Assembly (NCBI GenBank): GCA_947471505.1
Contig: CANIWM010000023.1
Coordinates: forward strand, 1-64,000
DNA length: 64,000 nt
Direction: 5' to 3'
Source: Chthoniobacteraceae bacterium
GTDB taxonomy: Bacteria; Verrucomicrobiota; Verrucomicrobiia; Chthoniobacterales; Chthoniobacteraceae
Position 1 is the first letter of the stretch. Each line of letters begins with the position of its first letter. This document shows positions 261-22,699 of this stretch, piece after piece. Both the position numbers and the translations under genes were made by a program. The notes beneath the pieces were generated by a model. The model was not told the DNA's origin. It saw only the letters and a list, made by a program, of their open reading frames with translations, and did not search any database.

Positions 261-288
261 GCGAAAGTAGTCCCCGACTTTAGTCGGC
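261..288 (+). repeat. 28-bp dispersed element, copy A
   Basis: It begins GCGAAAGTAGTC and ends GACTTTAGTCGGC. It differs from copies B (391-418) and C (20225-20252) at only two adjacent central positions (CC in place of AG). Its right half holds the palindrome CGACTTTAGTCG. It lies in inverted orientation to copy B, with about 100 bp between them. Confidence 0.85.
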
Positions 289-390: not shown

Positions 391-418
391 GCCGACTAAA
401 GTCGCTGACTACTTTCGC
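391..418 (-). repeat. 28-bp dispersed element, copy B
   Basis: Read on the minus strand, this is identical over 28 of 28 bases to copy C, which lies about 20 kb away inside a permease gene. It directly abuts the 21-bp tandem array. Confidence 0.9.
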
Positions 419-19198: not shown

Positions 19199-21454
19199 TC
19201 ACGCCTCGTTTTTGACGAGCGCCTGATTCTCTAAAAACGCACCGCTCATCAGCGCCGCCGCTTCGTTTTTGAAAAGGCGACGACTCGCGAGCCACATCGC
19301 GAAGAGCGCCATGAGCACACTGCCGACGATTCCCGCCGCCAGCGTGCCGCTTTTTACCACGAAGAGAAACTCCGTCCCGCCTGTCGCGCCGCTCCACACG
19401 CCGCCGAGCGCGTGCAGCACGGCCTTCGTGTAAAGCGCCGCTCCGCTAACGCCGAGCAGTGCGCCGATGAGCGCGAGCAGTGCGCCTTCTTTGAGGAAGA
19501 GCCGTCGCACTTGCTTGCGCGTCCAGCCGACGGCGAGGAGCAGGCCCGCTTCGGCGGCGCGTTGCTCGATGGTGAAGGTGAACAGCAGCCCGGTGAGCAC
19601 GGGGGCGGCGGCGATGAGGAAGAACGAAAACGACGCGAAGAGCTGGCCGAAATCGACCGGCGCATCCGTCGCGGCGAGGGCTTGCTCGCGGAGATTCACG
19701 ACGCGGAAGCCGAGCGCTTTTGGGTCTATAAAGGCGGCGATGCGCTCGACTTGCTCGCGCTTTGTGCGAGCGGGGTAGCGGATGCTGGTGAGGTTCCCCC
19801 AGCGGTTACCCCACATTTCCTGACCGACTTTGAGGTTGATGAATGCCTTGGGCGTGCCGCGATGTTCGGCCCAGTATTCCTCGTCCTTTTTGCGGATGCG
19901 CTTGGAGTCAAACGGGAAGCCGGGCTTCCATTTGCTGAAGCTGTCTTTGTCCGGGACGTTGGGGAAATCGGGCATCCACGAGCTGTCGAGTTGCGGCTCT
20001 TCCATCTCGATGATGGGCGCGAGGATGGTGAAAGTGCGCGTCTTTTCCACCAACTCGCGCCGCTCGCCCATGACGTTGTAGCGCAGCGTGACTTTGTCGC
20101 CGGGCTGCACGGCAAGGTCGTCGGCGAGCCAGCGGGAGATTTGGATTTCGTCATCGGCAAGCTCGGCCTGCACGAAGCCGGAAGAGGGGGCGTCAATGGC
20201 TGTGACCATCGAATACGGAGTTGAGCGAAAGTAGTCAGCGACTTTAGTCGGCGCAGCGTCTGGAGTCTTTGCGGGCGCTGGAACGGCGGGATCGCCCGTG
20301 CTGATTTCGGTGACGAAGTAGGTGAGGGAGTCGAGGCCAGGGGGAATCGATGAATGCATTACGGCGAAAAACGAATTGGATACGCCCTTTTCGTTGCGGC
20401 GGGCGGCTGAAGTAACGGCACCATCAATAAAGATGTGAGGCGTACGAAGTTCGATTCCGCGTCCGGCTGGCAACTCTCCTACAGTAAGCGCAGTGCTTTC
20501 CAGCAACTCGCGAAAGGCAGGCAGTAAGAACAAGCCTCTTCCATCCGCGTTTACAAAAACCGCGTTATGGTGAGTTTCCTCGGGCCGCTGATGGGCCACT
20601 CGACGGCTCGGTGGAGGCTCCACTTGCCGGTTGAACAACCAAGTGGTGAAACGCCACCACAGACTCGGCTCTTCGCCCGTGCCGTATATTTTCGGGTCAT
20701 TGAAACTCGCCACCACATTCACCTTCTCCCCCAAACCCACCTTCCCCTGCAACGCCGCGAGCGGCACAAACACCGTATTCGGCGGCACTTGGCTGGCGGT
20801 GAGCGCAAAGCGCCCGAAGTCCGCATCGCCCACGATGCGCCCGACCCGCGCCTTCACCGTGACGAGCGAGTCTTCCTCGCCCGAGAGCGGCGCGTCTTTG
20901 GAAAACGCACCGGGCTTTTCCACGTAGAGCGAAAGCTCGTCGCCCACTTTTGCGGAGAGCTGGGCGGCGAGGCGTTGGTTGAGCGCGATATGGACGACTT
21001 GGACAGATTGGACTTCATGGACGCGCTTGCCGCCGTCCATCGCGTCCATCTTGTCCATGCCGTCCATCGAGCGCGGCGCGAGCTTCCAGAAATCCTCATC
21101 CACCCCGACCACCTGCACCTTGTTCGCCCGCGCCTTGCCATCCGCGCGACTCGCAGAGCCTTGCATGAGCAGCACGCCCGCCGCGTTTTCTCCGGGGAAA
21201 AACATCCGCGCCACGACCGCCGGTCGCTTCGCCTTATCCGTCGGCCACGGCACGAAGCGCTCGCCACACAGCAGCGCATCCCCGATTTTCCCCACCCGGG
21301 CCTCCGCCTGCGCCTTGAGCGTCCCCTTCACCGAATCGCCCACCATGAGCGCCCCCGTGAGCACGAGCGCCGCCAGCGCGACGCCGAGGACGACACCGAG
21401 ATGCGTGCGCCAGTTGTGGCGGATGCTTTGCGTGAGCAGGCGGCGGGCGGTCAC
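19199..21454 (-). CDS. FtsX-like ABC transporter permease, with two inserted repeats
   Basis: A 751-residue MacB/FtsX-type permease. The GTG start at 21454 overlaps the TGA of the upstream Uma2 gene (GTGA). The first membrane helix (THLGVVLGVALAALVLTGALMVGD) is followed by an extracytoplasmic domain of about 500 residues. Three C-terminal helices follow (FASFSFFLIAAAPVLTGLLF, EGALLALIGALLGVSGAALY, TLAAGIVGSVLMALFAMWL). With the ATPase encoded at 22049-22699 it should form a lipoprotein- or peptide-handling mechanotransmission transporter. The extracytoplasmic domain contains two foreign-looking in-frame insertions: a hairpin of 9-bp repeats (20991-21070) and a 28-bp dispersed element (20225-20252). 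Confidence 0.88.
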   Translation of the reverse strand: MTARRLLTQSIRHNWRTHLGVVLGVALAALVLTGALMVGDSVKGTLKAQAEARVGKIGDALLCGERFVPWPTDKAKRPAVVARMFFPGENAAGVLLMQGSASRADGKARANKVQVVGVDEDFWKLAPRSMDGMDKMDAMDGGKRVHEVQSVQVVHIALNQRLAAQLSAKVGDELSLYVEKPGAFSKDAPLSGEEDSLVTVKARVGRIVGDADFGRFALTASQVPPNTVFVPLAALQGKVGLGEKVNVVASFNDPKIYGTGEEPSLWWRFTTWLFNRQVEPPPSRRVAHQRPEETHHNAVFVNADGRGLFLLPAFRELLESTALTVGELPAGRGIELRTPHIFIDGAVTSAARRNEKGVSNSFFAVMHSSIPPGLDSLTYFVTEISTGDPAVPAPAKTPDAAPTKVADYFRSTPYSMVTAIDAPSSGFVQAELADDEIQISRWLADDLAVQPGDKVTLRYNVMGERRELVEKTRTFTILAPIIEMEEPQLDSSWMPDFPNVPDKDSFSKWKPGFPFDSKRIRKKDEEYWAEHRGTPKAFINLKVGQEMWGNRWGNLTSIRYPARTKREQVERIAAFIDPKALGFRVVNLREQALAATDAPVDFGQLFASFSFFLIAAAPVLTGLLFTFTIEQRAAEAGLLLAVGWTRKQVRRLFLKEGALLALIGALLGVSGAALYTKAVLHALGGVWSGATGGTEFLFVVKSGTLAAGIVGSVLMALFAMWLASRRLFKNEAAALMSGAFLENQALVKNEA
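20225..20252 (+). repeat. 28-bp dispersed element, copy C, inside a coding region
   Basis: It is identical to the reverse complement of 391-418 and differs by two bases from 261-288. On the minus strand it is read in frame within the permease as PTKVADYFR, in a Pro/Ala-rich linker of the extracytoplasmic domain, so the insertion leaves the frame intact. Confidence 0.93.
20991..21070. repeat. Inverted arrays of a 9-bp repeat inside the permease gene
   Basis: On the plus strand four 9-bp units beginning TGGAC (20991-21026) are followed, after 8 bp, by four units beginning GTCCAT (21035-21070). The halves are complementary at the fixed bases, so the whole can fold as a hairpin. On the minus strand it is translated as MDGMDKMDAMDG, then VHEVQSVQVVH, a low-complexity insert in an otherwise normal domain. 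Confidence 0.85.
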
Positions 21455-22017
21455 AAGCCAGTCCGCGCGTAAATCGCGTCGAGCGATACGGTGAACTCCA
21501 GCTCGGGAATCGAGAGCGTGGCGCCGCCGGTGAGGATGGTGCGCGTCCAATCGGTAGCGGTGCGGCGATAGACGGTCACTTCGCGTTTATCCTGCGCGGC
21601 GAGGATGTAGGTGTGAAAGCTGGGAATGAGGCGGTAGGCGAAAAATTTCTCCCGGCGGTCTTTTTCCTCCGTGGCCTCGGAGAGCACTTCGATAATCACG
21701 GAGGGCGTGTCGCAGTGGTGCTTGTGCTGCCCGGCTGGGTCGCAATTCACAAAGACATCGGGGTAGTAAAACCAATCCTCATCGGCAGTGTGGATGTGGA
21801 CTTTCATATCGGCCATGAACGGCTCGCAGGGCTTCCCTTGCAAGTGAGCATTGAGCACCGACGCAAAAGCCATCGAGATTCGGTTATGCGGCGTGCTAGC
21901 CCCAGCCATCGCCTCGACCCTGCCCGCGTAATACTCATGGCGGACATCGCTGAGGAGTTCCCCTGCGATGTATTCTTCTGGCGAGATTAAGACTTCTCGG
22001 ACGGCGACAGTGCTCAT
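21451..22017 (-). CDS. Uma2-family (DUF820) putative restriction endonuclease, copy 1
   Basis: A 188-residue protein with the Uma2/DUF820 fold of the PD-(D/E)XK superfamily. Motifs are YEAxx-type HEYYAGRVEAMAGAS, then DWFYYPDVFVNCD (Asp) and PSVIIEVLSEAT (E-x-L, position of the catalytic Glu and Lys). The start MSTVAVREVLISPEEY fits the family; a longer frame would overlap the ABC ATPase gene. The gene sits between an ABC ATPase and its permease, and its stop overlaps the permease GTG (GTGA). It is a close paralogue of the gene at 27845; both end DAIYARTGL. The function of Uma2 proteins is unproven. Confidence 0.88.
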   Translation of the reverse strand: MSTVAVREVLISPEEYIAGELLSDVRHEYYAGRVEAMAGASTPHNRISMAFASVLNAHLQGKPCEPFMADMKVHIHTADEDWFYYPDVFVNCDPAGQHKHHCDTPSVIIEVLSEATEEKDRREKFFAYRLIPSFHTYILAAQDKREVTVYRRTATDWTRTILTGGATLSIPELEFTVSLDAIYARTGL

Positions 22018-22048
22018 TTGCAAATAGTGGCTGAGTTCAAATGTAGCG

Positions 22049-22699
22049 TCAAACCAACTTCCCCGCCCGCAGTTCCAACACACGCCCCATCTTCCCCGCA
22101 AGCTCCGGCGCGTGTGTGACCATGATGACGGCGACTTTTAGCTCCGCGAGAAGCTCGGTAAAACGGGCGGCGTTCTCGCGGTCGAGTGCGCCGGTGGGCT
22201 CGTCGGCGAGGAGGAGTTTTGGCGAGGTGATCAATGCACGGGCGACGGCGGCGCGCTGGCGTTCGCCGCCGGAGAGTTGGCCGGGGCGATGTGTGAGCCG
22301 ATGCGTAAGCCCCACTGCCTCCAGCAAGTGTGCCGCGCGGTCGCGGAAGGCGGCGCACTCGGCTTTCGACGCCTTGCGAGCGAGCGTGGGGACTAGCACA
22401 TTCTCCATCACCGAGCAGTGCGGGAGCAAATGGTGGAGCTGAAAGATGAAGCCGACTTCCGTGTTGCGGAACTCGGCGAGTTCATCGGGCTTGAGCGTCG
22501 CGAGATTTCTCCCGGCAACGATGACTTCGCCGCTCTCCGGCTGGTCGAGCGCGCCGATGAGGTTGAGCAGCGTGCTCTTCCCCGACCCGCTGGGCCCGAC
22601 GATGGCGACGGTCTCGCCCTCCGCGATAGAAAAGTCGCAAGCCGCGAGCACGGGCACGGCGGCGTAGGATTTAGTGACGTTGCGAAGTTCAGCGAGCAT
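22049..22699 (-). CDS. ABC transporter ATP-binding protein, LolD/MacB type
   Basis: A 216-residue ATPase. Walker A is GPSGSGKS (residues 35-42), the Q-loop lies in GFIFQLHHLLPH, the signature is LSGGERQR, Walker B and the D-loop are LLLADEPTGALD, and the H-loop is VTHAPEL. The FIFQ.HHLLP segment and small size are typical of LolD/MacB/FtsE-class ATPases, which pair with FtsX-like permeases. The expected partner is the permease at 19199-21454. A Uma2 gene lies between them. It starts 24 bp after the oxidoreductase gene, so it probably belongs to the same transcript. Confidence 0.92.
   Translation of the reverse strand: MLAELRNVTKSYAAVPVLAACDFSIAEGETVAIVGPSGSGKSTLLNLIGALDQPESGEVIVAGRNLATLKPDELAEFRNTEVGFIFQLHHLLPHCSVMENVLVPTLARKASKAECAAFRDRAAHLLEAVGLTHRLTHRPGQLSGGERQRAAVARALITSPKLLLADEPTGALDRENAARFTELLAELKVAVIMVTHAPELAGKMGRVLELRAGKLV

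Follow-up and report, generated by a model that had tools for sequence, protein, structure and literature searches.

In a genome of the family Verrucomicrobiaceae, a copy of the repeat REP1, the half-unit of a REPIN presumably moved by a RAYT transposase, has very probably ended up in the linker of an FtsX-type ABC permease, where it lies in frame and is tolerated. The repeat was recognized in the window, the whole 64,000-nucleotide stretch of DNA analysed here, as a 28-mer, GCGAAAGTAGTCNNCGACTTTAGTCGGC, which is present in two exact copies at 20225-20252 (plus strand) and 391-418 (minus strand). A third copy at 261-288 (plus strand) differs in 2 of the 28 bases (CC for AG); the sequence relationships given for the three copies in the preliminary description are thus correct. 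A search of the window for GCGAAAGTAGTCNNCGACTTTAGTCGGC with up to 3 mismatches gave no further copies, and none was found in 100 dinucleotide shuffles versus the three in the real sequence. The copy at 20225-20252 is a single REP1 with the layout GCGAAA-GTAG-TCAG-CGACTTTAGTCG-GC. It is located in a permease ORF of 783 amino acids (19199-21550, minus strand), whose codons from 20251 to 20225 (CCG ACT AAA GTC GCT GAC TAC TTT CGC) specify PTKVADYFR, residues 433-441; the reading frame claimed earlier is therefore confirmed, and the peptide is presumably translated. Since the copies at 261-288 and 391-418 lie on opposite strands, they are the left and right partners of an inverted dimer (261-418) with its GTAG ends facing outward. 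The segment 255-424 is predicted to fold into a single extended hairpin (as RNA, -76.9 kcal/mol with z -6.4), whereas the single 28-mer on its own forms a weak hairpin (z -0.45); none of the known RNA families looked for in the window was found. A perfect 8-bp tandem array (GGAGCGTC, 15.9 units) occupies positions 1-127 at the contig end, and degenerate repeats of 20-21 bp (CGCAGAGAAGCGCACCTTC) are found beside the dimer at 489-719.

The family of the 28-mer, REP1, is a GTAG-tagged REP family, and its pairs are REPINs. REP1 consists of GTAG, a short spacer and a hairpin, CGAC-TTYA-GTCG, in which one pair is A-T or G-C in a compensatory manner, and is conserved from 6 bases 5' of GTAG to around 21 bases past its first G, which corresponds to the 28-mer. 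GTAG is kept in 95-100% of the copies, most of it being demanded by the search pattern. The loop reads TT(T/C)A with a free third position. At the variable stem position, 24 of 43 copies have an A-T pair, 17 a G-C pair and 2 the combination A-C (Fisher p 4e-10), and changes on both sides of the stem were counted 14 times compared to 6.4 in shuffles. The exchange of A-T for G-C at this pair is seen in 14 of 34 distinct copies and is absent from most slid controls; the other four stem pairs show little variation. The genome (6.07 Mb, 153 contigs, 96.7% complete) contains 18 matches to the core GTAGTCNNCGACTTTAGTCG at up to 2 mismatches, with 0 for a reversed-pattern control, and 20 REP1 copies once stem variants are allowed. 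Ten of these form five inverted pairs with a start-to-start distance of 107-126 bp and outward-facing GTAG, and the others are singlets. The genome-wide count that the preliminary description had suggested thus revealed one copy, that of the permease, which is in frame in a gene with a recognizable domain; ten other ORFs of 189-502 amino acids that overlap REP1 copies had no Pfam match. Within the genus, which is the same as that of a Prosthecobacter MAG, 5 of 10 genomes have exact REP1 matches, whereas 47 genomes from elsewhere in the family and order have none; most genomes compared are MAGs. Among the named genomes scanned, REP1 was found only in two Verrucomicrobiaceae MAGs, one of which is labelled Prosthecobacter debontii, and a plasmid search was negative. 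The idea of a genome-wide mobile repeat is borne out by the 20 copies, the empty reversed control and the cognate RAYT of a sister species; however, the number of copies is modest, and the repeat is limited to the genus.

This cognate RAYT is encoded in the genome G006, where an ORF for a 223-amino acid Y1 transposase on contig 104 is located between two REP1 dimers and its TAG stop codon falls inside GTAG. The protein matches PF01797 (Y1_Tnp; E 4e-8, score 33.7 against a cut-off of 23), reaches 79 bits for NF047646 (E 3e-22), just below the cut-off of 80, and has a PDB match to TnpA_REP (4er8); the HUH motif and the catalytic tyrosine can be read directly in NHIHALI and YIAQNP. Nine Y1_Tnp loci were checked in the 96.7% complete genome of the window species, and no RAYT with REP1 nearby was found among them; the REP1 copies of this genome may therefore be orphans. 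Four further RAYTs each have a palindrome family of their own, two of which are tagged GGAG, not GTAG: those on contigs 97, 100 and 1 of the window species are flanked by GGAGCGGCGGCATTCCTGCCGCC (belonging to a second family, REP2), GGAGCGGGGCTTTCCTAAGCCCC and AAAGTAGCCCGCGAGTCCCTTCGCGG, respectively, and that on contig 293 of the genome G009 by CAACGTAGGCGAGATTTGTAATCTCGC. One RAYT per REP family is a known pattern (PMC3733652).

The host gene was assigned to the FtsX-type permeases by a C-terminal PF02687 domain (E 1.2e-14). Hydropathy places transmembrane segments at residues of around 46-74, 633-661, 682-711 and 727-756, and PTKVADYFR consequently lies in the large extracytoplasmic part, which supports the earlier assignment to an extracytoplasmic linker of an FtsX-like permease. 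Alignment to relatives (MTTRRLLL.. / VTARRLLT..) suggests a GTG near 21454 as the likely start codon. An ABC ATPase gene is found upstream (22049-22699, minus strand); its ORF contains the Walker A motif GPSGSGKS and the signature motif LSGGE. The ORF 21451-22101 between the two genes, presumably coding for a Uma2-type protein, which it resembles, overlaps both the ORF of the ATPase and the likely start of the permease. Downstream of the insertion, dN/dS is 0.10 versus G006 and 0.15 versus G009, and this part of the permease gene is under purifying selection. Residues 280-405 (about 20335-20710), in contrast, are saturated with changes (dN about 0.7); this extracytoplasmic block is almost unalignable between the window species and G006, while both flanks are nearly identical. 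The permease is thus under selection, but this part of the protein tolerates almost anything. In the window species, G006 and G009, the permease stops after one FtsX domain, and several other members of the genus have open frames of 1166-1459 amino acids; a second half may have been lost.

The variable linker, located approximately at 20217-20310 (minus strand) between the conserved anchors LTYFV and TPYSMV, differs widely in length among species. Seven other members of the genus have LTYFVN...TPYS(M/F)V with around 15 residues between the anchors, and other genera have around 9 to 21, compared to 30 in the window species with PTKVADYFR included. The orthologues read LTYFVNELRAGDGSDAKANATPYSMV and lack this segment, which is carried by one genome only; its presence in distant orthologues, named in the preliminary description as the finding that would speak for ancestral protein sequence, was looked for and not observed. 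The two closest species, G006 and G009, have longer linkers containing an in-frame dimer of REP2 (GGAGCGGCGRCA..., GGAGCGGCGRCAYTCYTGYCGCC), which reads CGGAGCGGCGACACTCCTGTCGCC...GGCGACAAGAGTGTCGCCGCTCC on contig 16 of G006 and CAAGGAGCGGCGGCATTCCTGCCGCC...GGCGGCAGGAATGCCGCCGCTCCTTG on contig 118 of G009. REP2 has 78 matches in the genome of the window species and many across the genus. Since REP1 is found in the window species and REP2 in G006 and G009, two unrelated REP families entered the same linker in three sister species. The REP2 dimers go back either to one shared insertion, later lost in the window species, or to two insertions. Identity is 86% between the window species and G006, 76% between the window species and G009, and 79% between G006 and G009. 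REP2 is also present in an 833-amino acid open frame of the genome G004 (contig 463, 1-2499, minus strand), in which a response-regulator domain follows the repeat; this is possibly a further case of a REP within a gene.

The following course of events is proposed. REP1 would be the half-unit of a REPIN, a non-autonomous mobile palindrome that depends on a transposase acting in trans, a RAYT/TnpA_REP enzyme from the HUH class related to IS200/IS605. This enzyme is predicted to recognize the single-stranded hairpin CGAC-TTYA-GTCG with GTAG as a 5' guide. In the lineage of the window species, one copy would have come to rest antisense between LTYFV and TPYSM, and the frame would have stayed open, so that PTKVADYFR is made as a tolerated, probably functionless insert. 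The insertion of REP1 into the permease is supported by the comparisons described above; from these we infer movement by a RAYT of the G006 type, the act of insertion itself, translation and the neutrality of the peptide. Read from the sequence, three of the six frames of REP1 are open, and an insertion that broke the frame would not persist; the in-frame location hence needs no special explanation. Among the orthologues examined, there is no clean empty site: in the two closest species this position is occupied by a different REP dimer, which hides where the insertion begins and ends and whether host bases were lost. As 28 is not a multiple of three, the change must have exceeded a bare 28-bp insertion.

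An open frame in a conserved gene would also be expected if PTKVADYFR were ancestral protein sequence that matches the repeat by chance, or if the repeat family was born from the gene. However, the seven other members of the genus and all orthologues of other genera lack these residues and have a shorter linker, and the repeat shows compensatory changes in its hairpin as well as a RAYT of its own elsewhere; chance ancestry is ruled out by the orthologues, and this explanation as a whole is extremely improbable. The preliminary description regarded the repeat as exapted, meaning that the peptide was kept because it helps the permease, for instance through linker length, flexibility or recognition. 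REP-derived linker sequence from two families in three sister species is in favour of such a role; however, the residues are wholly different between the species, the saturated block 280-405 is adjacent and most orthologues have no REP in the linker at all. With a hypervariable linker, three of six frames open and nothing to indicate function or conservation of the peptide, which is carried by one genome only, the claim of exaptation is not supported, and a beneficial role is considered improbable.

It is somewhat less improbable, albeit still unlikely, that REP1 arrived by recombination rather than by RAYT transposition, for instance through gene conversion or by taking the place of an older REP2 dimer. 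The permease copy is a singlet, REP2 dimers occupy this site in G006 and G009, and G006 is closer to the window species than G009 is, which fits an older REP2 insertion that was later replaced. On the other hand, the linker of the window species contains no recognizable REP2 remnant, STGD in its left part corresponds to RAGD of the ancestral linker, and the sequence past REP1 is not significantly similar to REP1 spacers (28 of 200 shuffles were as good). Two candidates were discarded: GGAACGGCGGGATCGCCC is suggestive of a REP2 remnant, but its GGCGAT part represents ancestral Gly-Asp codons, and similarity to a larger REP1-derived segment is not significant beyond around 34 bp. Besides the favoured insertion of REP1 by transposition, it can be speculated, though with considerable doubt, that the linker is a recurrent landing site at which REP families insert and replace each other in sister species. 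If this were true, REP turnover might be the main source of linker diversity in the extracytoplasmic part of the permease, a suggestion that is equally tentative.

The insertion of REP1 in the permease is an event of a type already known, a REP within an ORF. Di Nocera et al. (2013, PMC3733652) described GTAG REPs with RAYTs, dimers, GTAG-supplied stop codons and REPs within ORFs, and Opitutus terrae, another member of the Verrucomicrobia, had the most intragenic GTAG repeats. REP1 shares with these elements the GTAG tag, the short palindrome, the association with a RAYT, the GTAG stop codon and the in-ORF copy, and its dimers have outward-facing GTAG like those described there, for which a spacer of 20-100 bp is given. 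It differs from them by its genus and its low copy number (20), and the likeness to the 24 published families is one of description. The inverted pairs, which form one hairpin, also resemble the REPINs of Bertels and Rainey (2011, PMC3116915), in which singlets were read as remnants of doublets; however, REPINs were described as extragenic, whereas the permease copy is a singlet in a gene. The REPtron Mb of Marinomonas group 3 has a 5 bp stem, a TTTA loop and GTAG just 5' of it, as in REP1. SELEX with the TnpA_REP of this group revealed that loop bases 1, 2 and 4 matter and that the third is free (PMC8266576), and the REP1 loop follows this pattern as well (T, T, any, A). The gap between GTAG and the stem is two bases in Marinomonas (PMC8266576) and about three or four in REP1. 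Rickettsia palindromic elements (reviewed in PMC3733652), like the permease copy, are short palindromes in frame in host proteins; however, they are found in many Rickettsia ORFs, compared to 1 of 20 REP1 copies in a recognizable gene. Taken together, the analysis adds RAYT-associated REP families for a genus of the Verrucomicrobiaceae and a clear example of REP DNA in frame inside a conserved gene, and an additional point is that the linker of three sister orthologues harbours REPs of two families unrelated to each other. This natural series of sister species is suited to studying the entry of selfish palindromes into proteins and the question of whether loops are safe landing zones for them.
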